Source: Acidimicrobiales bacterium
GTDB taxonomy: Bacteria > Actinomycetota > Acidimicrobiia > Acidimicrobiales > SZUA-35
Direction: 5' to 3'
Assembly (NCBI GenBank): GCA_020629155.1
Contig: JAHDDW010000006.1
Location: 112,403-153,551 of the forward strand
DNA length: 41,149 nucleotides
Made by a program: the position numbers and the translations under genes. Below the pieces are notes generated by a model. It made no database searches. It had not been told where the DNA came from and was given only the letters and a program-made list of their open reading frames with translations. Position 1 is the stretch's first letter; each line of letters starts with the position of its first letter. Positions 2,495-37,515 of this stretch are shown piece by piece.

Positions 2495-2550
2495 AGAATT
2501 TAGGCTGTCTTTATTTATTCGTTTTGTATCGAATCGTCTTGCAAGAGAAC

Positions 2551-2559
2551 TGCTAAAAT
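2551..2559 (+). promoter_or_regulatory. candidate extended -10 promoter
   Basis: TGCTAAAAT matches an extended -10 (TG-n-TAnAAT). It follows a perfect 10-bp palindrome TCTTGCAAGA at 2537-2546 that could be an operator. No convincing -35 is seen. It would start a leader RNA of roughly 100 bases ahead of the membrane protein at 2673. Confidence 0.4.
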
Positions 2560-2594
2560 CTGTGTGGTAACGCCCCGAGCGAAGCGGAAGTGCC

Positions 2595-2622
2595 AAGGGC
2601 ATCATACTAAGTAGATGCCCTT
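2595..2622 (+). terminator. hairpin in the leader between the malic enzyme gene and the next gene
   Basis: A perfect 9-bp stem (AAGGGCATC with GATGCCCTT) closes a 10-base loop and is followed by only a short T/A stretch. It could end malic-enzyme transcription or act as an attenuator in the leader of the following gene. A smaller stem (CCG/CGG around GCGAAG) lies just upstream at about 2570-2585. Confidence 0.5.
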
Positions 2623-2672
2623 TATAATAAAGAGGTTAAAATTTGATGTATTCTCTAGTTTGAGTTTCAGAA

Positions 2673-3251
2673 ATGTGCTTTACTGTGGTTGGGATGGAAA
2701 CGGCAGGAAAAACTTCTAGAACAAGACACCCTCGTGAGATTCCGCTGCCTCAGCGGTCGTTGAAAACGCAGACGTTTCTTTCTATGGGAGTAGTTTATTG
2801 CGTTAGATGGCTCGTCTCGCTAGGCGTTGCAATGCTGGTATTTGTTCTTGCCGCAGGGTCGGCAGCTTCAAGCGAAAACGGATTTTGGGGGCAATTCTCG
2901 TTTTCTAGCGCAGCTTCGCTAGTTCGAGTAGCGTTTGCTTTTATTCTAGCTCTTAGCGTTACTGTCAGCATGAATGCGTTCCTTAGCGCTTTGGCAATTA
3001 TCAAGTTCGCAGAGCCAGGCAACAGGTTGTGGGCGTTTGCGTTAATGTTTACTATGCCGCTACTGACAGCTGGTGTTATGTCTGCGTTCATGCCGCTCAG
3101 CAGCATGGTAACACCTGGCGTTATTCTTTTCTGTGCTGCTGCGATAGATCTAGCTACGATGTTGTTTATTGCGTGGCGTATTTATTTGAAAAAATCGCCT
3201 TTCGCAAAATATAAATTAGTAGATTCAAGCGAATACCAGCCGCTCATCTAG
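2673..3251 (+). CDS. four-helix membrane protein of unknown function
   Basis: A 192-residue protein that I do not recognise. The first ~35 residues are basic and polar. Four hydrophobic helices follow: GVVYCVRWLVSLGVAMLV, the segment VRVAFAFILALSVTVSM, LWAFALMFTMPLLTAGVM and VILFCAAAIDLATMLFI. The C-terminus is charged and cytoplasmic-looking. The second ATG (2694) is also a possible start. The gene stands alone behind a structured leader and is convergent with the small gene at 3271-3528. No catalytic motif is visible. Confidence 0.65.
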   Translation: MCFTVVGMETAGKTSRTRHPREIPLPQRSLKTQTFLSMGVVYCVRWLVSLGVAMLVFVLAAGSAASSENGFWGQFSFSSAASLVRVAFAFILALSVTVSMNAFLSALAIIKFAEPGNRLWAFALMFTMPLLTAGVMSAFMPLSSMVTPGVILFCAAAIDLATMLFIAWRIYLKKSPFAKYKLVDSSEYQPLI

Positions 3252-3270
3252 AAATATCTCTTGTAGCGTT

Positions 3271-3528
3271 TTATTGCTCGCTATCTTCCCAAACAGGAGT
3301 AGCCATATCGATTTCAGAGCCCAAGCGGATGTTAACTGCCTGGTGAGTATCACTCACATCAAAAACAATACGCTGGCCAGGGCGTAACATGCGAAACACG
3401 GTGCCTTCCATCGCTCTTGGAGCTAACTCATATTCTTCAAGGTTGACGTCGTCTAAGACAACACCATCTTGTGTGGTTGGATCATATGATTTAATAACGC
3501 CTTGCATAGGTGCAATACTATCAGCCAA
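3271..3528 (-). CDS. small cold-shock/OB-like conserved hypothetical protein
   Basis: An 85-residue acidic protein starting at TTG 3528. The stop of the upstream aldo/keto reductase lies 27 bases before it, so the two are probably cotranscribed. The pattern GVIKSYDPTTQDGVVLDD then MLRPGQRIVFDV resembles the first strands and the 'G-x-x-V-x-F' strand of cold-shock/OB folds, but the RNA-binding aromatics of true Csp proteins are not obvious. A nucleic-acid-binding role is therefore only a suggestion. An internal ATG at 3506 gives a shorter alternative. Confidence 0.6.
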   Translation of the reverse strand: MADSIAPMQGVIKSYDPTTQDGVVLDDVNLEEYELAPRAMEGTVFRMLRPGQRIVFDVSDTHQAVNIRLGSEIDMATPVWEDSEQ

Positions 3529-6327: not shown

Positions 6328-7368
6328 TCAAGGCGAGACCAGTAAATCAAGGTAAGAAAAATCTTTGCTTTCTTCTTTTACGTAAAAAACTAGATCCTCT
6401 GCATAGAAATCGCAACCGCGAAAACGCAGGCCTACAAAGCCGCCTTGCACACCACCCACACCTTCACAATCAATGTACCAAGACTCATTAACACGAATCA
6501 GACACTCACCGCTGTTTATCCTAAAAAAATATTTCCTAGCAAGCGGTTCTGACCCATGAGGATTACACTCACAACCCTTCAAACGGCCAGACTCTTCATC
6601 AAGCTCGGGAGAGCAGCAACGATTCTGTTTATGAACTTTTTTGTAGAAAACAATTTCAGAATAAGCTTTATGTAGATTCATCGGCAAAGCAGAAATTCTT
6701 TCACGGCCATCATGCGAGAAGCGGAAAACTTCTTCTGCATAAAGTTCTTTATTGTTGAAGATCTTTCGTAAAAAAACTTGCATAATCTGGCCTCTGAGTT
6801 TGTAGACGCGACAGTTGTCGAAACCGCCGCCGTCAGCCCATGCTTTCGCTTTTGGGTTTTCGCTCAAATAGTTTTCCGCTTCTCGCCGTGAGCGTTCGAT
6901 TTCTTCTGAAACTATTTTTTTGTGCAAAATATCGATCAGCTGGTGTGACCATATGCGGGCCCTGTCTGGAAGTCTTAGCAAATGACTTATTCCGTGTTTG
7001 GAGGCTTGGTAGCTGAAAGCGTCAGAGGTCAAGCCAGATATTAAAGCTGCTTGTCGAGTCGTTAAGCCCGTCCTTAATATCATTGAAAGATCAGTCGTGT
7101 AGCCCTTTTCTGGGAGGTCGTACTCTGACTGATTAAGCCAAGCCTTGATCGTAGGTTTATGCCACACATAACAACCAGCAACTTTGTCGCAAATGCAAGG
7201 TTCTGGAAGTACTCCCCTCAACTTACCTGACAGTAAGTCTCTACGTAAATGACGACCTGAAACGTCTACGTCAACGCTCGCCAAAAGTTTTCCGAGCTGA
7301 TCGCTGTTGATGAAGTCTTCAATATTCACTGATGTCCGTTGTCGGAAAAACTGCTTATTTGTGTTCAT
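6328..7368 (-). CDS. element protein of unknown function with HTH-like segments and Cys clusters
   Basis: A 346-residue protein if started at ATG 7368; earlier in-frame ATGs would overlap the excisionase gene and have no better ribosome site. I do not recognise the family. A segment near the middle (LTTRQAALISGLTSDAF) looks like a helix-turn-helix, and paired Cys occur in CICDKVAGC and in NRCCSPELDEESGRLKGCEC, which may bind zinc. It is transcribed opposite to, and divergent from, the excisionase gene (61-base gap) and convergent with the integrase. This position fits a regulator of the integration/excision decision, but that is inference. Confidence 0.7.
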   Translation of the reverse strand: MNTNKQFFRQRTSVNIEDFINSDQLGKLLASVDVDVSGRHLRRDLLSGKLRGVLPEPCICDKVAGCYVWHKPTIKAWLNQSEYDLPEKGYTTDLSMILRTGLTTRQAALISGLTSDAFSYQASKHGISHLLRLPDRARIWSHQLIDILHKKIVSEEIERSRREAENYLSENPKAKAWADGGGFDNCRVYKLRGQIMQVFLRKIFNNKELYAEEVFRFSHDGRERISALPMNLHKAYSEIVFYKKVHKQNRCCSPELDEESGRLKGCECNPHGSEPLARKYFFRINSGECLIRVNESWYIDCEGVGGVQGGFVGLRFRGCDFYAEDLVFYVKEESKDFSYLDLLVSP

Positions 7369-7429
7369 ATAAGAAGGATAGCTTGTAATTATCGTAGAAA
7401 ACATAAACCAATTTCGAGAAAGATAAAAA

Positions 7430-7624
7430 ATGGAAACATCAAAAAAAGTTATGTCAGTCAAAGAAGTAACAGAATATTTAGGAGTCTCACAGAGCACGGT
7501 CTATGAAAAATGTGCTGAGGGTTCGCTTCCGCATAAGAGGCTTGGTGGTCGTATCCTGATCGTTAAAAAAACTATCGATGACTGGCTCTTGAGCGATGAA
7601 CCAAACGAAAGAGAAGTCGCATAA
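7430..7624 (+). CDS. excisionase-family small HTH protein
   Basis: A 64-residue protein with the winged MerR/HTH_17 pattern: MSVKEVTEYLGVSQSTVYEK, then RLGGRILIVKKTIDDWL. Such proteins act as excisionases or plasmid/phage regulators by bending DNA at attachment sites. It is the first gene of the rightward cluster that includes the helicase-like ATPase 48 bases further on. It is divergent from the gene at 6328-7368, so the shared 61-base gap must hold both promoters. Excisionase is the most likely role given the nearby integrase. Confidence 0.82.
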   Translation: METSKKVMSVKEVTEYLGVSQSTVYEKCAEGSLPHKRLGGRILIVKKTIDDWLLSDEPNEREVA

Positions 7625-7637
7625 TATGTCTCTGCAA

Positions 7638-7672
7638 AAAGCACGCAACCCCTACCGAAGCAGAGGTGCTTT
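7638..7672 (+). promoter_or_regulatory. inverted repeat enclosing the ribosome site of the helicase-like gene
   Basis: AAAGCAC (7638-7644) pairs with GTGCTTT (7666-7672). The right arm ends directly before ATG 7673 and overlaps the GAGG ribosome site (7663-7666). Folding would hide the site, so this may limit translation of the ATPase. Confidence 0.45.
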
Positions 7673-9328
7673 ATGAGCTTACCACAAAGCCCTTACATAG
7701 CAAACCAACCTGCAGATGACTCAAGAGAGTATGCCGATTGGCTTGCGAATCAGCAGCCGCCTGAGCTCGACGAACCCGAACCTAAAGAGGTGGATGAAAC
7801 TCTGTTAAATAACGACCCTAATTTAACAGTGGCGCAACACTTGGAAAATATGCGTAACCATCTAGAGGAAACGCAGCATATCACCGTTAAAGAAGATGTA
7901 CGAGCAGAGGCACCTGACGGTTCTTCTCTGGACGAAAAAACGCTAAAACTCCCAAATTGTCCAGAGGTCCCCCCAGACAATCCTTCGTCTGAGGAAATAG
8001 ATTTGGCTGATTTCGTACCCGTTCACTACCCAGAACTGCAAGAAAGTTTTTTCGACACACCTTTGTTAGAAGTCGTTGCCAATAACTCTATGTGCAGCGG
8101 CTTGTCGCCGACGGCTGGGACGTTTCTTTGGGTACAGACCGTTGCGGCTGTGCGACCCCATCAAGTCGTCCTCGACCAAACCAACGGGGCCGACTATGGA
8201 TCGCTCAACTACATCGTGTGTTGGGTCGCCGAGACAGGTAGCGGCAAAACTGAAGGCATCAAGATGATTCGAACGCTAGCTGATCTACCTCACGATTTTA
8301 AACAAACAAGTGTCGCTTCTGGTCAAGCGTTAGAAAAGATCTTCGCTCGTAAGGAGATCACTAATGCAGACGGAACCGTCTCTGACGCTACTTGCTATAA
8401 CGCATCAATTGTGTTTGAAGAAGGGAGAGAACTTTCAGCAAGGATCTACAACCGAGAAGACACAACACAAACCACACTGTCTAGCCTGTGGAGTGGAGCC
8501 GCAAGATCGACAGAAAAAGCGTCTGGGGAGAGCCGTGAGGTCAAGGCTATGTGTTATTCCATGGGGCTTATCACCGCCATCCAGCCAGAGTTTTTTCATG
8601 AGCTGGTTTCATCCGCTGAACAAGGTTTTTTCGGTCGGCAAGCCATTGTGGTGCCACGTCAAGTTTACCCAGACGAAACCCTGAAGATCCAAGAGGTGTC
8701 GACACGTTTTAATGTTTGTAGGCCGCCAGAGGTAAGGCACCAAAACAAAATATTTACACCAATAAAATTTGACGACGAAGCTAAAGAATTTTTTGACGAA
8801 AAGAAAAAACAAAGCGTTGAGAATTCAAACTATGGGCTAGCCTACAAGCACACAAAACACGACGATTTCAACCTAAAAAAAACGGCAGGTATCTTGTGTT
8901 ACGCACATGCTTGCTACGACAAAAAAAGGGACTGTGTTATAACGATGGAGTGGGTTGAGAGAGCGCAGCGATTCATGCAGGTGGCTATCGACACTCGTGA
9001 AATGCTGATGTTGAGGTCTGAACACATCTCAAGACGCGAGCAGATGGAGGCTTACAGCAACCGCAGTTCATATAGTTCGGGGGATTATGGAACTCCGATT
9101 AAAAACCTCGAAAACGATCGCGAACAATTAGAAGAGATTTTTAAGGCTCAAAAAAAGTTTGCTAAATACTTTACGCAAGGCCGATCGGTGACCAAAAAAG
9201 TGATTGACGAAAAAACCAGTGGCAGCTACAGGAGGAAACATCAGCATCAAATCAAAATTTTGGTTCAGCATGGATTCATCATCGAAAATGGTGATGACTA
9301 CAAATGGTTGGGAGATCAAAACCTGTGA
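7673..9328 (+). CDS. P-loop helicase-like ATPase (DUF3987/D5-type), replication module
   Basis: A 551-residue protein. The first ~110 residues are acidic and probably disordered. The ATPase core follows, with Walker A at 186-193 (AETGSGKT) and a Walker-B-like SIVFEEGREL around 245-254. The C-terminal ~70 residues (GRSVTKKVIDEKTSGSYRRK onward) look like a winged-helix DNA-binding domain. The layout is that of DUF3987 and D5-type helicases in plasmids, phage satellites and integrative elements, which load at the element's origin. No primase motif is visible. The gene overlaps the following DnaB_N ORF by 25 bases, so both are probably cotranscribed. Assignment to a named family needs a profile search. 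Confidence 0.75.
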   Translation: MSLPQSPYIANQPADDSREYADWLANQQPPELDEPEPKEVDETLLNNDPNLTVAQHLENMRNHLEETQHITVKEDVRAEAPDGSSLDEKTLKLPNCPEVPPDNPSSEEIDLADFVPVHYPELQESFFDTPLLEVVANNSMCSGLSPTAGTFLWVQTVAAVRPHQVVLDQTNGADYGSLNYIVCWVAETGSGKTEGIKMIRTLADLPHDFKQTSVASGQALEKIFARKEITNADGTVSDATCYNASIVFEEGRELSARIYNREDTTQTTLSSLWSGAARSTEKASGESREVKAMCYSMGLITAIQPEFFHELVSSAEQGFFGRQAIVVPRQVYPDETLKIQEVSTRFNVCRPPEVRHQNKIFTPIKFDDEAKEFFDEKKKQSVENSNYGLAYKHTKHDDFNLKKTAGILCYAHACYDKKRDCVITMEWVERAQRFMQVAIDTREMLMLRSEHISRREQMEAYSNRSSYSSGDYGTPIKNLENDREQLEEIFKAQKKFAKYFTQGRSVTKKVIDEKTSGSYRRKHQHQIKILVQHGFIIENGDDYKWLGDQNL

Positions 9329-22745: not shown

Positions 22746-24179
22746 ATGGAACACTTTGAACCCTATGACGCAGATAGTCCAAAAGAAGAGTGTGGCGTTT
22801 TAGCTATCTCCTCGCCTGGGCGTGAAGCTGCACGTAATGCTTTTTTCGGTCTTTATGCTTTGCAGCATCGTGGCCAAGAAGGCGCTGGTATTGCTGTCTC
22901 TGATGGTCATGCAGTGCGAGTCCATAAAGCGCAAGGCCTCGTAAGTCAGGTATTTACTCCAGAAGACTTGGGGCCTTTAACAGGTTCTATGGCAATTGCA
23001 CATACCCGTTATTCAACAACCGGTTCAAATAGCGATCGTAACGTGCAGCCGTATGTTATCGAAACAATGCATGGCCCTTTGTCGCTTGCGCACAACGGCA
23101 ATTTAGTTAATACCGATAGTTTGCGAAAGAAGCTGCTTGAAGACGGCGCTGGTTTGCAATCTTCTACCGACTCTGAAGTGTTAGCGCTGATGCTTGCTGC
23201 AACAAAAGGTGAAACATGGGAAGAACGTTTACGCAACGTTATGCCTAAATGGGAAGGCGCTTTCTCGTTAGCGTTAATGTCTGCTGGGAAGATAATCGCG
23301 GTTCGTGATCCTCGCGGTTTCCGTCCACTTAGCGTTGGTAAAATGCCTGTTTCTGGGTATGCCGTCGCTTCGGAAACTGGAGCATTGCTGACACTTGGCT
23401 GCACAGATATTCGTGAAGTTGAACCTGGTGAAATCATTGTTATTCAAGAAGATACTTTGGTCAGCTACCCAGATCCAGGCAAACCACAAGAACAGGCACG
23501 ATGCACGTTTGAACATATCTATTTCTCTCGACCTGATGCTGTCTGGGATGATTTATCAGTGCATAGCGTTCGACAGAAACTAGGTGAAGAGTTAGCAAGA
23601 GAATACCCAGTCGACGCCGATGTTGTTATTGCCGTCCCCGATTCTTCGATGCCAGCAGCTATTGGCTATTCTGAAACCTCAGGCATTCCTTACAACGAAG
23701 GGTTCGTCAAGAACCGTTATATCGGTCGAACATTTATCGAGCCAACAACTGAGCTGCGCAAACAAGGCGTTGCGTTAAAGTTCAATACCTTACCTGAAAA
23801 TATTCGAGGGAAACGCGTTGTTGTCGTCGACGACTCAATTGTGCGTGGCACAACATCTGGCCCTATCGTCCAGCTGATACGTGACGCTGGTGCCACTGAA
23901 GTGCATATGCGCATTACGTGTCCGCCTATTAAGAACCCTTGTTTCTTTGGTGTTGATTTCGGAACCTATGAGGAGCTTCTTGCATACAAAATGGAAGTTT
24001 CAGAAATGTGCGACTACATAGGAGCCGATTCGTTGGGCTTTATTTCGGTTGAACGAATGATGAAAGCATTAACAAAAGATGACGGGTATTGTAATGCTTG
24101 TTTCACAGGGGTGTATCCTGTCCCTGTACAACTTTCTTTAAGCACATCTAAGCAACGATTCGATGGAGTCATACAGTGA
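22746..24179 (+). CDS. purF: amidophosphoribosyltransferase
   Basis: 477 residues; transfers ammonia from glutamine to PRPP, the first step of purine synthesis. A 15-residue propeptide precedes the nucleophile Cys16 (EECGVLAI). The glutaminase domain shows YALQHRGQEGAGI and LAHNGNLVN; the PRPP loop is VVVVDDSIVRGTTSG. Cysteines in RCTFEHIYF, RITCPPIKNPCFF and YCNACFTG fit the [4Fe-4S], oxygen-sensitive type found in Bacillus and actinobacteria. It overlaps the next gene by GTGA. Confidence 0.96.
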   Translation: MEHFEPYDADSPKEECGVLAISSPGREAARNAFFGLYALQHRGQEGAGIAVSDGHAVRVHKAQGLVSQVFTPEDLGPLTGSMAIAHTRYSTTGSNSDRNVQPYVIETMHGPLSLAHNGNLVNTDSLRKKLLEDGAGLQSSTDSEVLALMLAATKGETWEERLRNVMPKWEGAFSLALMSAGKIIAVRDPRGFRPLSVGKMPVSGYAVASETGALLTLGCTDIREVEPGEIIVIQEDTLVSYPDPGKPQEQARCTFEHIYFSRPDAVWDDLSVHSVRQKLGEELAREYPVDADVVIAVPDSSMPAAIGYSETSGIPYNEGFVKNRYIGRTFIEPTTELRKQGVALKFNTLPENIRGKRVVVVDDSIVRGTTSGPIVQLIRDAGATEVHMRITCPPIKNPCFFGVDFGTYEELLAYKMEVSEMCDYIGADSLGFISVERMMKALTKDDGYCNACFTGVYPVPVQLSLSTSKQRFDGVIQ

Positions 24180-26485
24180 ATAAGTTACATGTCCTTCTAA
24201 TAGGCTCAGGGGCTCGTGAACATGCGATTGCCGAAGCTATAGCCAAATCGCCACGCCTAGGATCACTGGCGGTTGCTCCAGGTAACGCTGGAACAGCTGC
24301 ATATAACGTCATTCTCAATACAGAAGATCACGATGATGTGGTTGAGTATTGCGAAGCACAAAATATTGATCTTGTAGTAGTTGGTCCTGAACAGCCTCTT
24401 GTTAACGGCTTATTTGACTATCTCAAAGGTGCTGGAATACGTTGTTTCGGCCCTTCTGCTGCGGCTGCTCGTCTTGAGGGATCAAAAGAGTTTGCGAGAG
24501 AGTTCGCAGCTCGCCACAACATTCCAGGCCCTGTGTATGCTTCTTTCACTGAATCGGCCGACGCGCTTGCTTGGCTAAAAGAGTTTGATCGCCCTGTAGT
24601 GGTTAAAGCTGACGGTCTTGCTGGCGGTAAGGGTGTCATTATCCCTGAATCATATGAAGAAACTGCTGCCGCAATAACTGGGTTTCTTGACGATGGCACG
24701 ATGGGCGAAGCTGGTCGAACGGTTCTCCTTGAAGAACGCATGGAAGGCGAAGAGCTATCGCTATTTGGTATTTCAGATGGCTCTGGCGTTTCTTTCTTGA
24801 CGACGGCACAAGATCATAAACGTGTCGGCGAAGGCGATACTGGCTTAAACACTGGCGGCATGGGCGCTTTTGCTCCTGTCCCAGGATATGAAGACAAAGA
24901 AGAAGCACTTGTAGAACAATTCTTGATCCCTGTTGTCTCGGGTATGGCTGCTGAAGGGACACCATATATCGGTGTGCTTTATGCTGGCATAATGATGACT
25001 GAAAGTGGGCCAAGACTCATTGAATATAACTGTCGATTTGGTGACCCTGAAGCGCAAGTTGTTCTACCACTTATTGCATCTGACCTTCTCGACCTATTTG
25101 ATGCAGCAGCCGATGGCGACCTTGCTCGTTCTCCGATGAATATGTTGAGCGAAACGACAACAGCTACTGTTGTTCTAGCCGCAGACGGTTATCCAGTAAA
25201 GCCAACACAGGGTATAGCGATTGAAGAAATAGCTACGCCAGACAACGTCATGGTTTACCACGGCAGCACAGAATGGGAAGATGGCCGTGTTCTTAGCACA
25301 GGTGGCAGGGTGCTCAGTGTTACTGCTGCTGGAGTGGACCTCGCAGATGCGTTAGAAGCAGCATACGAAATTGTTGACCGTTATACGGGGAACGGCCTGT
25401 TCGCTCGGTCTGATATTGGCTGGCGTCATCATCAGCGTGAACTTGCTGAGCCTGCTAAAACTAGAACCACTAGTGCATACGAAGATGCAGGCGTTTCTAT
25501 AGGCGCAAGCGATGAAACGACGGAGCGGATTTCTGAAGCTGTCAAAAGTACACATAATGCTAACGTGCTTGCTGGTTTAGGAAGCTTCGGCGGTGTCTAT
25601 GATTTATCGCAAGTCGCTGCGATGGATCATCCGCTACTTGTAGCAAGTACTGACGGCGTTGGCACAAAAACTATTTTGTCTGAAGAACATGATACATGGG
25701 AAGGCGCTGGCGCTGACATCGTTAATCATGGGATAAATGACGTGTTGGTCCAAGGTGCGAAGCCTTTATTTTTCCTAGATACCGTCGCTTCTGCACAGCT
25801 TAACCCTGAAACGGTGGGTCGAGTTGTTGACGGCATGGCTCAAGCATGTCGAGAAGCTGATTGTGTTCTTCTCGGAGGCGAAACTGCTGAAATGCCCGAC
25901 GTCTTAACAGCTGGAAGTGTTGATATCGCTGGCACCATGGTTGGTATCGTTGAGAAGAAAGATCTTCTCCCTCGTGAAGGTATTAAACCAGGACATGTAC
26001 TGATTGGTCTTGCTTCGTCTGGTTTGCACACAAACGGCTATTCATTAGCCCGCAAAGTTGTTTCAGGGATGGATTTGTCAGAGCCTTTACCTGGTGGTCG
26101 TGGGACATCGCTTGGCGATGCTTTAACAGCGATTCATAGAAACTATATTGATGCGTTATCACCTGCTTTAGATGCTGGTTTGATCGATGCGTTAGCTCAC
26201 ATAACTGGTGGCGGTCTTGTAGATAATCTTCCACGCGTGCTGCCGAAAGGTTTGGGTGCGTCTATCAACACGTCGTCATGGACATGGCCTGCGCTCTTTA
26301 AGTTTCTGGTAGCGCAGAGCGGCATCACACATGAAGAAGCCTATCAAGTCTTTAACTTGGGTATTGGTATGGTTGCCGTGGTCGCTCCAGATAAAGTTGC
26401 GCAAACGCAAGAAGCAATTACTGAGCGTACCAAAGTTATCGGACAAGTAACCGATAACGAAGGCGTCAGCTTCTATGAAGGCTAA
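24176..26485 (+). CDS. purDM: fused GAR synthetase - AIR synthetase (PurD-PurM)
   Basis: 769 residues, GTG start with GGAG upstream. Residues 1-~425 are PurD: LLIGSGAREHAIA, ATP-grasp segment KADGLAGGKGV, LNTGGMGAFAP and EYNCRFGDPEAQVV. From about 434 (coordinate ~25475) PurM begins: YEDAGVSIGASDETTERI, STDGVGTK, GGETAEMPD (567-575), LASSGLHTNGYSLAR and HITGGGL. The two enzymes catalyse GAR formation and FGAM-to-AIR closure, steps that are not adjacent in the pathway. They are normally separate in bacteria. The gene overlaps purF by 4 bases and purN by 11. Confidence 0.96.
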   Translation: MNKLHVLLIGSGAREHAIAEAIAKSPRLGSLAVAPGNAGTAAYNVILNTEDHDDVVEYCEAQNIDLVVVGPEQPLVNGLFDYLKGAGIRCFGPSAAAARLEGSKEFAREFAARHNIPGPVYASFTESADALAWLKEFDRPVVVKADGLAGGKGVIIPESYEETAAAITGFLDDGTMGEAGRTVLLEERMEGEELSLFGISDGSGVSFLTTAQDHKRVGEGDTGLNTGGMGAFAPVPGYEDKEEALVEQFLIPVVSGMAAEGTPYIGVLYAGIMMTESGPRLIEYNCRFGDPEAQVVLPLIASDLLDLFDAAADGDLARSPMNMLSETTTATVVLAADGYPVKPTQGIAIEEIATPDNVMVYHGSTEWEDGRVLSTGGRVLSVTAAGVDLADALEAAYEIVDRYTGNGLFARSDIGWRHHQRELAEPAKTRTTSAYEDAGVSIGASDETTERISEAVKSTHNANVLAGLGSFGGVYDLSQVAAMDHPLLVASTDGVGTKTILSEEHDTWEGAGADIVNHGINDVLVQGAKPLFFLDTVASAQLNPETVGRVVDGMAQACREADCVLLGGETAEMPDVLTAGSVDIAGTMVGIVEKKDLLPREGIKPGHVLIGLASSGLHTNGYSLARKVVSGMDLSEPLPGGRGTSLGDALTAIHRNYIDALSPALDAGLIDALAHITGGGLVDNLPRVLPKGLGASINTSSWTWPALFKFLVAQSGITHEEAYQVFNLGIGMVAVVAPDKVAQTQEAITERTKVIGQVTDNEGVSFYEG

Positions 26486-29403: not shown

Positions 29404-30750
29404 ATGACAGAACGCAAACCTTCACTACTATCGATAGCCAGAGTGCTGCTGCTTGGCGTTGTTGCCACGGCCGCTTCTTTTTCACTGGCTGGCACTGCAT
29501 CGGCAGAACAAGGCGCTCCAACAATTTCGCAAGTCGACCTTGAACTAGAAGGTGCGCCTTTGACTCAGGTTGCACCAGCAGAAACTGTGCTCGGCGATGA
29601 CACTGGTGTGAAGATTGTGTCAGCAACAATCGTAGATAATGGTAGAAAAAAAGTGGCTGAAACCGATGGAGCTATCCCAATCGGCAGCACAATTGCAGTG
29701 TCAGAACAGCGAGGTTACGAACGACTTTTTTCGGCTCCTCTACAGGTAAACGACTATATTTTGCTTGTCGAAACAAATGGTGACGCTACGATAACGTTGA
29801 CGGGCTTAGACGAATTTGGTCTTCCTAGAGCTGGCAGCGAGAAATCACTGCAATCTTTCCAATGGGACACAGGTATCGAGGCAGCAGATGGAGAAACCTA
29901 TTGGGTGTCTGTTATCGCTGCAGATTCACTAGCAGGTTCACAAGGTATACGCACGCAAAGCGATGCTGCTGACGTGCAGATATTGCCTTTGAAGGTGATA
30001 GCAGATGAAGAGATACTTTCTGATGAGACACGAAAAGCGAGGGAGCAGGCTGGGGAAGAAAAAAAGGAAGCAGAGTCTAAAGAACCAGTTGCACTTGTTG
30101 GAGAAATAGCATTTAACGCTTCGGCTACAACGCAAAAAAGTTCAGATTCTTGTGCCGGTGAAGATGTGTTAAGCATCGAATCGCAAACAGAAGTCGCATT
30201 CTGCTATTTAGTGACCAACACAGGATCTTCACCTTTAACAGATGTACGTTTTAGCGATGAAAACCTCAACTTGCTAGATGTGTATCTTCCTCGGGTAACA
30301 GGAAACGATCTGCTTTTCCCAGGGGAATCTGCTGTTTATACTACAACGCTAACTTCGTCTGAAGTGAGTACTATTTTCACGCCGAGAGTTTCAGCTGCGG
30401 TTGCAGATGAACAAGGCTCTATACAAGAAAACGTAGCTAAAGCGGTTTCTGATGATGCTGTTCAACTTGAAATAGCTGGTTCTGGTCTTCTTGGGGAAAC
30501 AACAGTCGCTGGGTCGGTACAAGACGGCCAGCAGCTAGATGAAGTATTGCCGAAAGAACCTGTCACAGAGGCAGAAGCCTCTCCAACAGGTGCAGCTACA
30601 GATGAGATCCCAGAAGTAGAGGCACCTACTGCACTTGCTTTTACTGGCATAGAAACAACAATCATCTTGCTAGTATTGGCCGCTGGAGCCTTATTTTTCG
30701 GTAACACAGTGCGTTTGGCTGCTGCGAAAGAAAAAGATATACTCACATAG
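29404..30750 (+). CDS. exported surface protein with LAFTG sorting signal
   Basis: 448 residues. A signal peptide covers ~1-35 (ARVLLLGVVATAASFSLAG then TASAEQ cleavage). The mature part is strand-rich with a charged KEAESKE linker near 225, followed by a domain with two Cys (SDSCAGEDVL ... EVAFCYLVTNTGSSPLTDV), an Ig/DUF11-like fold seen in surface adhesins. The C-terminus has LAFTG, a hydrophobic helix (IILLVLAAGALFF) and a short charged tail. LAxTG is the signal for class E sortases. Function is probably structural or adhesive; the sortase is not in the window. Confidence 0.8.
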   Translation: MTERKPSLLSIARVLLLGVVATAASFSLAGTASAEQGAPTISQVDLELEGAPLTQVAPAETVLGDDTGVKIVSATIVDNGRKKVAETDGAIPIGSTIAVSEQRGYERLFSAPLQVNDYILLVETNGDATITLTGLDEFGLPRAGSEKSLQSFQWDTGIEAADGETYWVSVIAADSLAGSQGIRTQSDAADVQILPLKVIADEEILSDETRKAREQAGEEKKEAESKEPVALVGEIAFNASATTQKSSDSCAGEDVLSIESQTEVAFCYLVTNTGSSPLTDVRFSDENLNLLDVYLPRVTGNDLLFPGESAVYTTTLTSSEVSTIFTPRVSAAVADEQGSIQENVAKAVSDDAVQLEIAGSGLLGETTVAGSVQDGQQLDEVLPKEPVTEAEASPTGAATDEIPEVEAPTALAFTGIETTIILLVLAAGALFFGNTVRLAAAKEKDILT

Positions 30751-30827
30751 GCTTCATGCCTAAGGAGTGCTAGGGCTAACCTACATAGGCGCTTGTTGCT
30801 GCTTGTGCGGTGCGGTACTATGGCCTG

Positions 30828-32441
30828 ATGGTCCGTAGTATGTCAAAAATTTTCGCAGCGCTTGTTCTTGTCATTTCGTCAGTTGTTTTCTTTCCAGGAG
30901 CTTCAACTGCACAGGTCGAAGCGACACAGCCGCTAGGTTCAGATGCAGACCAGATATGGGATGTTGCAGATGCTGACCCTAGCGTGCGACATACTGGCGC
31001 TATCCGTGCTCTTATTTGGGATATCGATGAATATGAAGGCAAAATATATGTTGCTGGAAAGTTTCTTAACGTTGTAGCGCCAGATGGCGCGACCTATGAA
31101 CGCCCGTACCTAGCGGCTTTTGATGCCACGACTGGGGCGTGGGTGGAATCTTTCCAACCACAGTTAGATGGCGCGATTTATTCGTTGGCACTCACTGATT
31201 CTGGCCGTTTACTTGCTGGGGGAGAGGTCACAGGCGGTGTTGTCTCGATCGATCCTTCAACGGGCGCTGTTGACGCTGGTTTTGCTCCTGGTATCAAAAA
31301 TAGTTGGGGAACACCAGCAGTGTTTGACTTGGAAACAAAAGGTGATGTGACCTATGCCGCTGGACGTTTCGCGAAAGCTCAAGGAACCCAGCTGTTAAAT
31401 TTAGCGAAATTCTCAACGCAAACAGGAGCGATTGATACAGCGTGGACTCCAACAGCAGAGTTTGACTTGGGGACACCACGCATTGGAGGTCAGCTTGTAT
31501 ATGGCATCGAAGTCGATGAGTCTCGTGATCGTGTGTATGTCACAGGTAAGTTCGGGTCAATCAACGGAAATACTGACGCAGCGTATTTCGCAACGCTAGA
31601 TCAAGCAACAGGTACACTCAAAGACGTTCCGCAGGGGTTGCCAGTCGGCACGCTGAATCATCGCGATTCGTTCTCTATGTGGCAACATGATGTTCGCTAT
31701 CGCGGTGACAAAGTCTATATAGGGGGACAGGCCCACCAGACACTCATTTTGAACGCAGACGATTTATCTCCTACTGCTTCTTTTTTCACGAACAGAGGCG
31801 TTGGAGACAGCTATGCTGGCGGCGATACGCAAACCATTTTTCTTGGGAAGAACACATTATGGGCTGGCTGTCATTGCTGGGGCTCTGTGGGGCCCTATGA
31901 GTTAGGTTCGTACAACGCAGTTCATGCCGACGGACGTCAGGCATATAGCGAATATGCGCAATGGGTGAAAGATTTTGCAACGATAGATCCTTTTGGTCAA
32001 CAAAAAGTGCATGGCGCCTACGGTATCGATTTAGCAACAGGCAAGTTGAGCGAACAACAGTTTAATTTGAAAGGTAAAGGCGGCGCTTGGGCTTTGTTTG
32101 AAGCGAGTGACGGCAGGCTTTGGATGGGTGGCCATTTTCAGCCACGGATCGGATCGAAAGACAGCGGTTTGGCCCGATTCTCGCCGCAAGGCAGCGATGA
32201 ATTGCAGCCAGTTGCAGAGTGCAATGTCGAAACTGTTGACGGCCAATTACATGTTTCTTGGCCAAGTGCTGCAAACGCTGAAGACTATGTGGTGTATCGC
32301 AGCGTCAACGGGTCGCGGCAACACTGGCGCGGGAAAACGAGCAACCTGCAATTCGTTGATTCGTCACGCGCAGGCGACATAGTCTATTTCGTGGCCTCAA
32401 AAAGGGGTAATGAAAAAGCCGCACGAAGTACGTGCAGCTAA
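30828..32441 (+). CDS. exported repeat protein, beta-propeller type
   Basis: 537 residues from ATG 30828 (an earlier ATG at 30810 is possible). Signal peptide: FAALVLVISSVVFFPGAST, cut near AQVEA. The body holds repeated blades of the form 'GKIYVAGKF...LAAFDATTG', 'VTYAAGRF...LAKFSTQTG', 'RVYVTGKF...FATLDQATG' and 'LWMGGHF...LARFS', resembling delta-60 / DUF5122 propellers. Residues ~465-537 look like a fibronectin-type domain (LHVSWPSAANAEDYVVYRS). Secreted, probably binds a ligand or matrix; no catalytic site seen. Confidence 0.75.
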   Translation: MVRSMSKIFAALVLVISSVVFFPGASTAQVEATQPLGSDADQIWDVADADPSVRHTGAIRALIWDIDEYEGKIYVAGKFLNVVAPDGATYERPYLAAFDATTGAWVESFQPQLDGAIYSLALTDSGRLLAGGEVTGGVVSIDPSTGAVDAGFAPGIKNSWGTPAVFDLETKGDVTYAAGRFAKAQGTQLLNLAKFSTQTGAIDTAWTPTAEFDLGTPRIGGQLVYGIEVDESRDRVYVTGKFGSINGNTDAAYFATLDQATGTLKDVPQGLPVGTLNHRDSFSMWQHDVRYRGDKVYIGGQAHQTLILNADDLSPTASFFTNRGVGDSYAGGDTQTIFLGKNTLWAGCHCWGSVGPYELGSYNAVHADGRQAYSEYAQWVKDFATIDPFGQQKVHGAYGIDLATGKLSEQQFNLKGKGGAWALFEASDGRLWMGGHFQPRIGSKDSGLARFSPQGSDELQPVAECNVETVDGQLHVSWPSAANAEDYVVYRSVNGSRQHWRGKTSNLQFVDSSRAGDIVYFVASKRGNEKAARSTCS

Positions 32442-32744: not shown

Positions 32745-33347
32745 GTGCTTAATTACTCAGAGCAGAAACACCCAGTTAGTAAAGTAGCGCTGAAAGAGGT
32801 CGATGTTTATGACGTGAGATCTCTATCAAAACGGCAAAGTGAAAAAGGCGCAAGCATGGTTGAGTTTGCTTTGGTGTTTCCTGTTTTCGTCTTCTTTATT
32901 TTTGCGATAATCGATGGCTCAGCTGCCTTTCATTCGAGAAACACGATGGGCGCAGCTGTAGCAGATACCGTTAGAGGTGGTGCTATTTCAGGTCGTGCAA
33001 TCGATAGCGACGAAAAAATTGTGAAAGGCATTATCGCCAGGAGTGACAATGCATTGGCAACAAATGTGCAGCGTATAGTCATATTTAAAGCGGATATGCG
33101 AGATCCTAATCCAACAGATGATTGTAAAGCAGGAATAGCAAGTAGCGAATGCGCTGTCTACGAAAAAGATAACTTTGATTCTCCTGTATGTTTAGGTGGC
33201 TGGTGCCCTCCTGATCGTAACACAGATGATTGGATTGGAGTTTGGGTGTTAAGCGAATTTGAAGGTTTAACAGGTATGAACCCTTTTGATTTCTCCTGGA
33301 CGGACCGTGCTGTAACAATAGTCGAACCAGAGAGGCATATCCCATGA
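32745..33347 (+). CDS. TadE-like pseudopilin 1
   Basis: 200 residues from GTG 32745; GTG 32814, preceded by AGAGGT, would give 177 and a more usual TadE N-terminus. The class signature KGASMVEFALVFPVFVFFIF shows the prepilin-like site (Gly before the hydrophobic stretch, Glu at +5). The exported part has four Cys, including CLGGWCPPD. TadE-like proteins are minor pilins of Flp/Tad systems or related secretion. It overlaps the next gene by 4 bases. Confidence 0.82.
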   Translation: MLNYSEQKHPVSKVALKEVDVYDVRSLSKRQSEKGASMVEFALVFPVFVFFIFAIIDGSAAFHSRNTMGAAVADTVRGGAISGRAIDSDEKIVKGIIARSDNALATNVQRIVIFKADMRDPNPTDDCKAGIASSECAVYEKDNFDSPVCLGGWCPPDRNTDDWIGVWVLSEFEGLTGMNPFDFSWTDRAVTIVEPERHIP

Positions 33348-34009
33348 TGATGCGTCGTACAGATAAACAAGAAAAAGGGGCAGCAATGGTTGAGCTAGCA
33401 ATCATTGTTCCTTTGCTACTGATGATTGTTATAGCAGCGATAGATTTAGGAGATGCGTGGTTTCGATCTAGTGCTGCACAATCGGCTGTGCGTTCTGCAT
33501 CTGTCGTGTCATTTGACGCTGGAAATGAACATGATCATGATCTGCGTGTACTCAGATCAGTTATTTCAGAACTTGAGAATCGCGGTATAGAAAATATCCG
33601 AAATGTTATTATTTATGATGCCGATTTCAACAAGAAAGGCAATGGTGGTGGTAAGGGTAAGGGGGGCAATAAGAATCCTGTGCCAATAGGCTGTATTAGC
33701 AATTCGTATGCTGTTTCCGGGGTTGATGGTTTATGCATTAACTATGGTCGTGATTTTTTGTCAAAACTATTTACTGAAGAAGTTGAAGCTGAATTCGTTA
33801 ATGGTGATTGTCAAGCGTCAATAGACAAACACTGGTGTGCACAAGAGCGAGGAATTGCCAGCAACGGTGGTCTTGTAAACCCTGATGGTAGCTATTCAAT
33901 CGGCATTTATGTCGTCGCAGATCAACCAACGATGACGGGCTTAATGCCAGGATTCACAGAGTATACGATAACAAAAAATGCTGTCAACAAAGGTTGGAAT
34001 AATGATTAA
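33344..34009 (+). CDS. TadE-like pseudopilin 2
   Basis: 221 residues. Begins MMMRRTDKQEKGAAMVELAI and continues with the same single N-terminal helix as its neighbour, so the two are paralogs. A Gly/Lys-rich loop (NKKGNGGGKGKGGNKN) interrupts the exported domain, and four Cys follow. It overlaps the upstream gene by 4 bases and the TadG-like gene by 8, showing one operon. Confidence 0.82.
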   Translation: MMMRRTDKQEKGAAMVELAIIVPLLLMIVIAAIDLGDAWFRSSAAQSAVRSASVVSFDAGNEHDHDLRVLRSVISELENRGIENIRNVIIYDADFNKKGNGGGKGKGGNKNPVPIGCISNSYAVSGVDGLCINYGRDFLSKLFTEEVEAEFVNGDCQASIDKHWCAQERGIASNGGLVNPDGSYSIGIYVVADQPTMTGLMPGFTEYTITKNAVNKGWNND

Positions 34010-36047
34010 ACCTAAGTCCTTGATGAGAAGTGAGAAAGCACAAGGAAGTGAACTTGGTCAAATACTGCCTATGGCGGCCTTTTTGGTTATCCCGTTGCTG
34101 ATTGTGTCTGCGTTTGCTGTCGATTTAGGTTCTTTTTATCATAGAGCATCACAGTTGCAGTCAGCATCTGACTTGGCTTCTTTAGCTGGCGCTGACCTTA
34201 AGTCACAAGGTGTAACAGAAAGCGAAGTTCGTGATGTCGTCGAAGTAGTTCTCCAAGATAACGGTATTGACACAAACAAAGTAAGTGTTAGCGTCAACTT
34301 CTCTGGTGATGAAGTTGAAGTAATTTTGGAGGACAACGATGTTCCTGTTTATCTTGCATCGTTATTCATGGACAACGCAGAGATTAGACGTAGCGCGACA
34401 GCAGTTAAAGGGTCGTGTGCTGGTGATTGTGATCAGCCGATTGTTATTTCACCGCCTCTGGGTGCATTGCCAACAACAAGCCAAGGCGATGGCACTGCTC
34501 CTTTAGCTGTTACAGCTGATGATGGCACAGAATACATTTTTGCATTGAACCATCATCTATCTTCGAACCAAGAAAGTACCATTCGTGGTTTCCCTATGGT
34601 TCCTCAGTTGATTTGCGTCGATATAGAAGCTTTGGCATTCTGTCCAGGCTACCCTAGAAGGGTTAACACGTCGACAAGCGAGATGACTCGTCTTGCCTAT
34701 AGCGAAGCGACAAATGAAGTTTGGTATCCAATTCAGCGTCCAAGCTATGTTAACGCTGTTGAAGATTTCGACGCGAGAAGCGTTGGAGCTACAACCTATC
34801 TTGGTATGGGGTGTATCAGCTTAGCAACGCTTGGTGATTGCGGCGAAATGAAAGTAGGCGCGACGGTGCCTCACGGACCTGAAGGACTTCTTAGCTTTGC
34901 TGGAAAAGTTGATCATGGCCACATGTCAACGCAGATTTACGAAATTGATGGTCTGCTTTATATGATCGACGGTGATATGAACGTTCATTGCAAAGACCCT
35001 GCAACACGTGGAGACTGCGCAGGCTTTCCAGTTTCGACACCTTCATCATGGGTTTCGATTAGCAATGAAGATCTTGTTGGAAACCCCCCTGGTAGCGACC
35101 CTGGAGCTGCCAATCTTCCAGCTGGTTTCGATTCATGGTATAACAAGAGTGGTTTCCAACCTATTCTCGTGGTGTCAGAAAACAGATTGTATGGTTCATG
35201 GCCTGCACAATCTGGAAACTATTCAATCTGTTTCGACATCGTAGCAAGAGCAGCGTGCGCAGGGTTCTCCTCACGTGTGATAGCTGATTATCCGAACGCT
35301 TTCGGCCCTGGACTGTTTGAAGACTTAGATAGCGCAGGTAACCCAGATGGTTTCTGTTCTCCGAACTGGAGAGAGTCACTTGTCTGCGTTCGATCTGACG
35401 GGTCTTTGCGCGATCGCAGTGCGTTAGAGCCGCATCTACAGCCTTCAAACAAATTTGTCTATATCGAGCCGTTTCGTTTAGGCAGTAAACTCTTTATGCC
35501 AGCGCCACAGGAATATCTTGACGAAACCGACAAGACAACTGACGGTCGAACCTATTGTGTTGATTTAGTGACGAACAATCCTTGCTCTGGAGGAGACCTT
35601 GGGGCTGGTGTTCGACAAGACCCTCAGCCATATGGCTATAGTCAGCTGTCAAACCGTAACTGTCTGATTTCTTTAGGCCATTTGGGTGAGTTCTCTACCT
35701 TTGATCCAGACACTCTAGCGCCTTGCCCTGCAGGCGATGGGCTGATAGAAGTTTTCCCTTGCGACTGTGGTGACGGTACATTCTTCTGGGGTGAGCTAGC
35801 GTTCGGTGCTGATTTCTTAGCTAATTTCGATTCGTTCAGTGTCGATGTGACTGACGCTGCCGGAACGGTGCTTATCGACGATGCAGACCTTCTTGCATCT
35901 AACGGTCGTCTCGATTTGTCTGATCTTGATACAAGTTTAACATCGATCTTCATTAAGTATGAGTCTGATATAAGTCCAGCAGTGACTACGGCAAGTCCTA
36001 TTGAAGGCACATTCTCTATAACGGAGAGAGCTACACTCGTTGATTAA
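34002..36047 (+). CDS. TadG-like protein with large Cys-repeat exported domain
   Basis: 681 residues from ATG 34002 (AAGG upstream). N-terminus: GQILPMAAFLVIPLLIVSAF, the TadG-type helix, then ASDLASLAGADLKSQG, the usual Tad N-terminal region to ~140. The rest is an exported domain with a repeated motif C-x-D-x(6-7)-C-x-G: ICVDIEALAFCPGYP, VHCKDPATRGDCAGFP, ICFDIVARAACAGF and YCVDLVTNNPCSGG, each preceded by a 'lxxLYxxx' strand. This looks like disulfide-closed propeller blades. The C-terminal module starts FWGELAFGADFLANF. Function is unknown; a pilus-tip or surface protein is inferred. Confidence 0.78.
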   Translation: MIKPKSLMRSEKAQGSELGQILPMAAFLVIPLLIVSAFAVDLGSFYHRASQLQSASDLASLAGADLKSQGVTESEVRDVVEVVLQDNGIDTNKVSVSVNFSGDEVEVILEDNDVPVYLASLFMDNAEIRRSATAVKGSCAGDCDQPIVISPPLGALPTTSQGDGTAPLAVTADDGTEYIFALNHHLSSNQESTIRGFPMVPQLICVDIEALAFCPGYPRRVNTSTSEMTRLAYSEATNEVWYPIQRPSYVNAVEDFDARSVGATTYLGMGCISLATLGDCGEMKVGATVPHGPEGLLSFAGKVDHGHMSTQIYEIDGLLYMIDGDMNVHCKDPATRGDCAGFPVSTPSSWVSISNEDLVGNPPGSDPGAANLPAGFDSWYNKSGFQPILVVSENRLYGSWPAQSGNYSICFDIVARAACAGFSSRVIADYPNAFGPGLFEDLDSAGNPDGFCSPNWRESLVCVRSDGSLRDRSALEPHLQPSNKFVYIEPFRLGSKLFMPAPQEYLDETDKTTDGRTYCVDLVTNNPCSGGDLGAGVRQDPQPYGYSQLSNRNCLISLGHLGEFSTFDPDTLAPCPAGDGLIEVFPCDCGDGTFFWGELAFGADFLANFDSFSVDVTDAAGTVLIDDADLLASNGRLDLSDLDTSLTSIFIKYESDISPAVTTASPIEGTFSITERATLVD

Positions 36048-36061
36048 TTTATGTGGGAATT

Positions 36062-37515
36062 ATGAATACAAGGGAACAAAAAAACAGAGGTGGGGCAGAT
36101 TTTGCCGATGGCAGCGTTTGCTGTAGACCTAGGATCGTTTTACTATAGAGGATCACAGTTGCAGTCGGCGTCAGATCTAGCGTCGTTAGCTGGCGCAGAA
36201 ATGCAGTCGCAAGGAGCTTCTGAAGCTGAGATTCGTGACACGGTCAACGACGTTTTGGAAAGCAACGGCGTTGACTTAGGAACAGTTGATGCTGACATTT
36301 TGCTGTTCGCCGACCAAGACGAAGTGCAAGTGTCGTTGAATGACAAAGACGTATCGCTCTACCTTTCATCGTTTTTGTAGACGAAATAGAAATTAGCCGT
36401 GATGCGGTTGGCCTAGTGATTTCGTGGCATGACAACTCAGCCGGTTATCGTTGATGATAAAATCTATGTTTTTGATAATAACCTCAAAGTGCATTGTTAT
36501 GATCCTGTCGAAAAATCTAAATGCTCTGGCTATCCAAAGAAGCGCGACAGTTCGTGGAACCGCACAAGGAACCAAGACCTTGTCGGCAATAGGCCTGGCG
36601 TTGATCAAGGGCCAACAACAACCTCTGGTTGGGCTCCCGACGAAGGCTATGAACCACGTGCGCTTGCAGCAGAAGGTCGTATCTATTTGTATTGGCCAAC
36701 GAAAGAAGGCGTGAGACTTCTATGTTTCGACCCTTCATCTGACGGCCCATGTAGCGGTTTCGGCACGCCTATTGCACATAGTATTCCACGTTTCTGGCCT
36801 GCTATTTTTGAGAACCTTGATTCATCGGGTAACCATAATGGTGTTTGTCTCTATCAGACTGATAACACCGTGCCCTGTGTTGACGAGAACGGAACTGTCT
36901 TTACTCGAAACGATTTAAATGCATCGTTGCCCTCTCACTGGCATCGTACCTATAACACACCACTTCGCATAGGTAATCGTCTATTTGCTGGCGCTCCTTG
37001 GCAGAAAGACAGCAATAGCGCTACCGCTTGGTCTAAAACCTACTGTGTCGATTTGATAACTGGCGCTTCATACGGTGTGCGTTCCGACCCTCAGGCATAT
37101 GGCTACGATCAGGTTCCTAACCGCGAGTGCGTCATGTCTGTAGGACATATTGGTGCGTTCTCGTCGTTTAGTCCTGAGGATTTACAGCCATGTCGTTCTG
37201 GTAGCGGTCTGATTGAAATTTTCCCTTGTTCGTGCGATGGAGAGAATTTCTTTTGGGGTGAGCTCGCCTTTGGCGCTGATTTCTTAGCTAACTTTGATTC
37301 TTTTGAAGTGACGATTAAGAATGATGTGGGAGTGGTGCTCGTGCCAGAAACAGACATGCTTGACACAGGGGGGGCGTCTTGATCTGTCATCGTTAGATCC
37401 TACGCTAACGTCGGTTCTTGTTGAATATGAATCTGAAGTAGACGCTTCGATCATTTGGACTGAACCTATCGACGGTTCGTTCTCTGTGACCGAACGTGCG
37501 ACTCTTACGAAGTAA
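36062..37515 (+). pseudogene. decayed tandem copy of the TadG-like gene
   Basis: Aligns to the preceding gene over its N-terminus (GQILPMAAF...SDLASLAGAEMQSQG) and whole C-terminal half (VHCYDPVEKSKCSGYP to FSVTERATL). Damage seen: an extra A in A7 at 36078-36084 shifts the frame before GQILP; an in-frame 33-base loss removes the membrane helix; one T is missing in the T5 at 36372-36376; a deletion of roughly 170 codons with frame change lies near 36425; one G too many in G7 at 37368-37374. The longest open piece is 36429-37382. It still encodes two C-x-D...C-x-G units. Confidence 0.85.

Follow-up and report, generated by a model that had tools for sequence, protein, structure and literature searches.

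Tad pili are widespread, but little is known of the ligands that most of their tips bind. In Myxococcus, the Tad-like Kil pilus is provided with KilLMN minor-pilin tips that have exchangeable heads and are encoded in four gene clusters, giving partly redundant tips for one pilus; these are three-gene minor-pilin sets homologous to TadE/F/G, in which the largest subunit carries the exchangeable head at its C terminus, with several sets per genome and many predicted disulfides (PMC12075869). CpaL of Caulobacter crescentus is an orphan Tad minor pilin, encoded outside the pilus cluster, in which a pilin module is joined to a bulky head, and which is predicted to sit at the tip together with two small minor pilins (PMC12607857). 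Among type IVa pili, the tip adhesin PilY1/PilC places a Cys-rich, seven-bladed beta-propeller with predicted disulfides at the pilus tip (PMC13190605, PMC8179133). Here we analyze a stretch of 41,149 nucleotides from an Acidimicrobiales bacterium (C20:112,403-153,551; hereafter, the window) that contains an operon resembling these systems, with genes for two TadE-like proteins and one TadG-like protein carrying a predicted beta-propeller.

As in KilLMN, two smaller pilin-like subunits (the TadEs being recognized by profile only) and one large subunit with a C-terminal head are encoded by adjacent genes. Because the TadE-TadE-TadG plan is that of the Kil tips and resembles CpaL, and a propeller tip is found in PilY1, we read the operon as a tip cassette, and consider it fairly likely that its products form the minor-pilin tip of a Tad (type IVc) pilus, a complex of three subunits (TadE, TadE, TadG) with the propeller as the exposed head. 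The three-gene set would thus probably cap the pilus with a Cys-rich beta-propeller, which seems to be one of several interchangeable tip pieces among the relatives of this bacterium. The differences from the described systems are nevertheless clear. The KilN4 head is reported to lack a structural match in the PDB (PMC12075869), whereas the head here is a predicted propeller, and Kil is tied to predation, with no such evidence for the present operon. The head of CpaL consists of a vWA domain and beta barrels (PMC12607857), whereas for the window TadG no match to VWA was obtained with E values up to 1. PilY1 is not a pilin (PMC8179133), whereas here the propeller is fused to one, and the PilY1 family PF05567 is missing both from the matches of the window TadG (E up to 1) and from the six families listed for ten members. 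PilB of Streptococcus sanguinis and similar modular pilins belong to another type IV pilus type and bear vWA or lectin modules; the survey that described them began from the IPR012902 motif and may miss Tad-type heads (PMC8179133). A search of the literature on TadG or the Tad pilus together with beta-propellers, or on Tad genes in Acidimicrobiia or Acidimicrobiales, with most subscription journals outside its reach, listed no paper recognizable as describing such a protein, and no entry listed for the first of these subjects combined TadG with a beta-propeller. The modular Tad tip as a kind is already known; what is new is the head module of this minor pilin and the separation of its genes from the motor locus.

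All three genes exceed the Pfam cut-offs for their families (Table 1), in agreement with the original prediction, made from this DNA alone, of two TadE-like proteins and a 681-residue TadG-like protein. That length holds from the ATG at 34002, which overlaps the TadE2 stop; an alternative in-frame ATG at 33978 gives 689 residues, and TadG residues are numbered here in this longer frame (minus 8 for the 681-residue protein). The TadE1 and TadE2 genes share 4 bases, and the overlaps from TadE1 through TadE2 to TadG make a single transcript likely. A promoter scan was uninformative (5 sites versus 8.5 in shuffles), and terminator-like sites (12 versus 4.4 in shuffles) were mostly intragenic. The PF13400 match lies at the N terminus of TadG, in residues 27-73, and the family was matched at E up to 1 in 9 of the 10 rows of a TadG alignment, the exception being a headless decayed piece. 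Prepilins share a cleavage motif that, in classical pilins, includes a glutamate at position +5. Prepilin-type heads can be read in both TadEs, as ...EKG/ASMVEFALVFPV in TadE1 and ...EKG/AAMVELAIIVPL in TadE2, each with Glu at +5. A phage origin was considered and discarded, the best PHROGs match of the two TadGs scanned (E 0.053) not being significant.

Table 1. Features of the pilin-like operon and the adjoining decayed gene (window coordinates)
Feature	Position	Strand	Description and basis
TadE-like minor pilin 1 (TadE1)	32745..33347	+	200 aa, GTG start; PF07811 E 1.7e-13, 50.9 bits, cut-off 22.9
TadE-like minor pilin 2 (TadE2)	33344..34009	+	221 aa; PF07811 E 2e-10, 41 bits, cut-off 22.9
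TadG-like modular minor pilin	34002..36047	+	681 aa, open frame; PF13400 E 3.9e-10, 40.3 bits, cut-off 22.3
TadG pilin head, residues 27-143	34056..34406	+	helix 29-76 (long), helix 81-94, strands 102-143; AlphaFold2 model, PF13400
Predicted beta-propeller, residues 160-579	34455..35714	+	seven Cys pairs; AlphaFold2 model, fold match, Cys table
C-terminal mostly beta domain, residues 600-689	35775..36044	+	AlphaFold2 model, pLDDT 72-90 by blocks of ten
Decayed tandem TadG copy	36090..37515	+	three fragments 54, 43, 52% identical to TadG; three-frame reading

For residues 160-579 of TadG, the AlphaFold2 model predicts a toroidal beta-propeller fold, as the earlier reading of a propeller-like module had anticipated. 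The best match of residues 160-577 (VIA-align) is E. coli YncE (3vgz; Z 24.7, rmsd 3.6, 296 residues), the next propellers include WDR5 and G-beta, and Z is at least 8 in 920 of the 974 aligned chains. We take these top matches to be seven-bladed, and, going by them, the TadG propeller would have seven blades as well. The C-terminal domain is barely covered by the fold matches, and its fold was not placed. PilY1 is absent from the 50 fold matches listed for TadG, which does not exclude a likeness to it. At the thresholds used, residues 140-689 match nothing in Pfam, NCBIfam or the PDB sequences, and one of ten propeller members shows a weak PQQ_2 match (E 0.79). The original prediction had named a known fold with an assigned function as a result that would count against it; the structure prediction returned a known fold, with no function assigned to it. 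Could the propeller be a pilin-presented enzyme, for example a glycan-degrading or quinoprotein-like one, rather than a binding head? Among the Foldseek matches are tetrathionate hydrolase, endo-arabinanase and glucose dehydrogenase; however, the fold matches are a mix of unrelated propellers at 6-11% identity, none of the sequence searches above returned an enzyme over the propeller, and D420 is the only polar residue besides Cys among the 16 columns that are invariant in ten sequences. We therefore regard an enzymatic head as very improbable and retain the binding tip as the preferred reading; as a defined, expressible domain, the propeller lends itself to a direct search for its ligand.

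The cysteines of TadG are more numerous than the at least four Cys repeats noted originally, which are real: there are 18, grouped as seven main pairs (213/222, 279/288, 338/347, 418/427, 460/470, 527/536 and 562/583) that sit in or at the edge of the predicted propeller region, together with 147/151 and 595/597. The partners are 9-10 residues apart in six of the main pairs and 21 in the seventh, with 35 to 80 residues between successive pairs. Across the 27 rows of the Cys table, from which 8 of 35 rows had been left out as fragments (<300 columns), 213/222 is complete in 26, 279/288 in 24, 338/347 and 418/427 in 26 each, and the remaining three pairs in 27 each. The incomplete cases comprise one gap in each of the first two pairs and half pairs in the second (two), third (one) and fourth (one); in no sequence are both cysteines of a main pair replaced. 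This conservation suggests that the main pairs form disulfides, and an arrangement of one pair per blade would fit on average (420 residues, seven blades). Thus, of the disulfide-closed propeller blades proposed originally, the propeller with Cys pairs stands as a predicted fold, and the bonding is a suggestion drawn from pair conservation. The two remaining pairs follow the pilin head: 147/151 is complete in all 19 pilin-linked rows that reach the site, whereas the remaining 8 rows, from seven headless proteins and a fragment of genome G003, lack it in the aligned columns. For 595/597, all 20 pilin-linked rows have the complete pair, and 6 of the 7 rows without a pilin head have it broken. 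Both are present in all 19 pilin-linked copies scorable for both, from which we infer that residues 147, 151, 595 and 597 would fasten the linker of the stalk to the propeller's end.

The modularity of TadG was examined in fetched stretches, namely 66 from relatives, the window, five others from the same genome, and L074-L076, most of them selected for their similarity to the window TadG. These hold 68 TadG-head open reading frames (ORFs) of at least 400 aa, whose C-termini fall into three groups in an all-against-all BLAST, a propeller group of 19, a second group of 47 and a third of 2, proportions that are not population values given this sampling; no links join the groups at E 1e-5 over 100 residues. 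For the other C-terminal module, represented by L074, the structure model is unreliable (mean pLDDT 43.7). Of 298 genomes of the order, 19 have the propeller; among 296 genomes sampled from the phylum, the present one alone does. A scan of genome contigs with the window TadG as a single protein found no relative; a scan with an alignment gave eight named loci, of which seven were read (all except L077), L070-L073 having the propeller and L074-L076 lacking it. In the 3 kb upstream, 39 of the 68 TadG ORFs have at least two TadEs, 4 have one and 25 have none; the share with two or more is 5 of 19 for propeller TadGs versus 34 of 49 for the others.

These data also bear on the alternative that TadG is merely anchored in the membrane by its pilin-type helix and that the propeller is a surface receptor or enzyme that never enters a pilus. 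The same propeller is found without a pilin head in L109, L113, L117, L119, L121, L122 and L124, several with surface-protein domains: LAxTG-like C-termini, noted by eye, in L109 and L122, fn3/PKD-type domains in L117, an SdrD_B-like one in L119, and a weak dockerin match in L113. In those of these proteins that were scanned, the propeller region has no Pfam match over the cut-off. Together with the propeller TadGs that have no TadE detected in reach (13 of 19), the headless proteins favor a simple anchor. However, two TadEs accompany the propeller TadG in the window and in several family members, and TadG-head genes co-occur with the Tad motor (see below), so that we consider an anchor-only role unlikely compared with a place in the tip complex.

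The motor genes are found elsewhere in the genome. As the original prediction stated, there are no TadA/B/C/Z genes at the locus: phmmer at 1e-10 detected none among the window ORFs, and the T2SSE and T2SSF matches of the genome all lie outside the window. The suggestion that the organism itself is without secretion machinery fails, given that two motor sets are present. The first, RcpC-TadZ-A-B-C at C20:66,688-72,732, is on the same contig, some 72 kb upstream of the start of the operon; it was recognized by RcpC (PF16976, E 1.4e-7), TadA (T2SSE) and TadB and TadC (T2SSF), TadZ being the label given here to a ParA/MinD-like ATPase. No TadE or TadG stands beside it. The second set, on contig C56, has its own TadE (PF07811, E 3e-18) and a TadG of 329 aa (PF13400, E 5.7e-8). 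Flp pilin matches were obtained on two contigs, C33 with E 2e-9 and C5 with a score under the cut-off, and the single A24 prepilin peptidase match is on C1. The parts of a complete tad locus are thus dispersed, the operon and the motor sets being about 72 kb apart or on separate contigs and the Flp and peptidase genes elsewhere; searches for complete tad loci will label such operons orphan or secretion-free. As a separate observation, the TadB proteins of the C56 set and of two relatives' C20-type sets begin with a fused vWA domain, Pfam VWA_2 (L009 7538-9352, L142 12416-14827 and L169 9755-11812), and the C20 TadB of this genome, with 357 aa, is without it.

A similar separation is seen across relatives. 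We defined a C20-type TadA by a best identity of 66% or more, a cut chosen by the analyst; 43 of 61 genomes have one, this genome included, and the locus was inspected in 21 of the 42 relatives (20 from the best TadA hits, plus L142). The order RcpC-Z-A-B-C is kept in all 20 relatives taken from the best hits, and in those 20 profile searches at E 1e-3, over stretches of 12.7-18.5 kb, detected no full-size TadE or TadG beside the motor. Short ORFs of pilin type (76-154 aa) are present in 5 of the 20, and the three that were scanned, from three stretches, match Flp, two of them under the cut-off. Conversely, of the 68 TadG-head ORFs only one shares its fetched stretch with motor genes. This is L142 (genome G039), where TadE-TadE-TadG is directly followed by RcpC-TadZ-TadA-TadB-TadC, and which is the strongest individual connection of the operon to a motor. 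A complete Tad locus adjoining the operon in relatives, named originally as a possible refutation, is thus encountered once (1/68), but the TadG of L142 carries a C-terminal module other than the propeller. Two shorter TadGs (<400 aa) adjoin motor genes of the C56 type, namely that of C56 in this genome and one of 343 aa in G002.

In addition to this link, the presence of TadG and of a C20-type TadA is correlated. In the 61 genomes, 40 have both, 7 have the TadG match only, 3 the TadA only and 11 neither; in the 39 high-quality genomes, the respective numbers are 28, 1, 1 and 9 (Fisher p 4.6e-7, a value that overstates the support because the genomes are related). Put differently, a C20-type TadA is found in 28 of 29 high-quality genomes with the TadG head versus 1 of 10 without it, and in 40 of 47 versus 3 of 14 overall. 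The operon could, alternatively, supply an extra tip for the C56 system rather than for the C20 motor, or for both, given that a C56 motor set exists in the same genome and that Kil tips are interchangeable on one pilus (PMC12075869). However, C56 already has its own TadE and TadG, and the motor of the only linked locus, L142, resembles the C20 set more than the C56 set (TadA 66 versus 54% identity, TadB 47 versus 30%, TadC 51 versus 40%, TadZ 32 versus 30%). We accordingly rate service to C56 as distinctly unlikely and favor the C20 motor as the partner of the operon.

The originally given span of 32745 to 37515 is not intact throughout: it includes a decayed second TadG downstream of the first. 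In the decayed copy, the membrane helix is 11 residues shorter, stops follow the head, about 180 residues are gone, and the tail is in a different frame. A tree of 11 rows places it as sister to the window TadG with support 99/98, and, given this placement, we read it as a dead local duplicate, the remains of a second tip next to the live copy. With a tip operon separate from the motor, several head modules and a fossil beside a live copy, tip exchange becomes countable across genomes. Propeller TadGs split across two or more frames were also observed in L063 (G003, 1482-3364) and L118 (G221, 7212-9260), as a result of either decay or assembly errors.

Taking these lines of evidence together, the following scheme can be proposed. 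The TadE, TadE and TadG pre-pilins would enter the membrane and be trimmed by the A24 prepilin peptidase (contig C1), and the three trimmed pilins would form a starting complex, beneath which the C20 motor RcpC-TadZ-A-B-C (66.7-72.7 kb) would add Flp subunits (genes on C33 and C5). The propeller would then ride at the pilus tip and bind a ligand, such as a surface glycan, a protein or a neighboring cell. In this order, the tip operon may have become detached from the motor locus, with subsequent duplication, loss and exchange of the head. We further propose, tentatively, that the Tad pili of Acidimicrobiales might combine a conserved motor locus with freely roaming tip cassettes, and that the operon might represent a new tip family, with a seven-bladed propeller that has a disulfide per blade, is common to other exported proteins of the lineage and is locked to the stalk by 147/151 with 595/597; the gain, exchange and decay of cassettes would re-tool what the pilus binds.

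Several observations weigh against this interpretation. TadG has a pilin head, but lacks the Glu+5 of classical pilins. The structure model, built from six sequences, has a mean pLDDT of 71.6 over the whole protein and a pTM of 0.60. The uneven spacing of 35-80 residues between Cys pairs leaves one pair per blade unproven and slightly lowers our confidence in the tip complex; furthermore, the genome has no match to VKOR (PF07884) or Thioredoxin_4 (PF13462), DsbB and others not having been sought. Of the 13 propeller TadGs for which no TadE was detected in the upstream 3 kb, 12 belong to other families and one (G001) to the same genus, so that the three-gene unit is not universal; some propeller TadGs occur in tandem (L067, L110 and L123), and in L061 one of the two TadEs is on the opposite side of TadG. 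The co-occurrence with the motor depends on the chosen identity cut and is confounded by descent, the genomes not being independent. It also has exceptions in both directions: G052 has two propeller TadGs and no C20-type TadA, six further genomes, all <90% complete, have TadG but no such TadA, and G045, G036 and G037 have a C20-type TadA and no TadG match. Finally, the C56 motor set could serve the operon as well.

Just upstream of the operon, at 29404-30750 and 30810-32441, the window encodes two probably exported proteins. One shows a DUF7507 match under the cut-off and, by eye, a C-terminus with LAFTG plus a helix; the other has weak matches to propeller families (DUF5122 and DUF5074), all under the cut-offs. 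Farther upstream, at 24176-26485, a 769-aa protein fuses GARS (PurD) and AIRS (PurM) and is encoded beside other purine synthesis genes.

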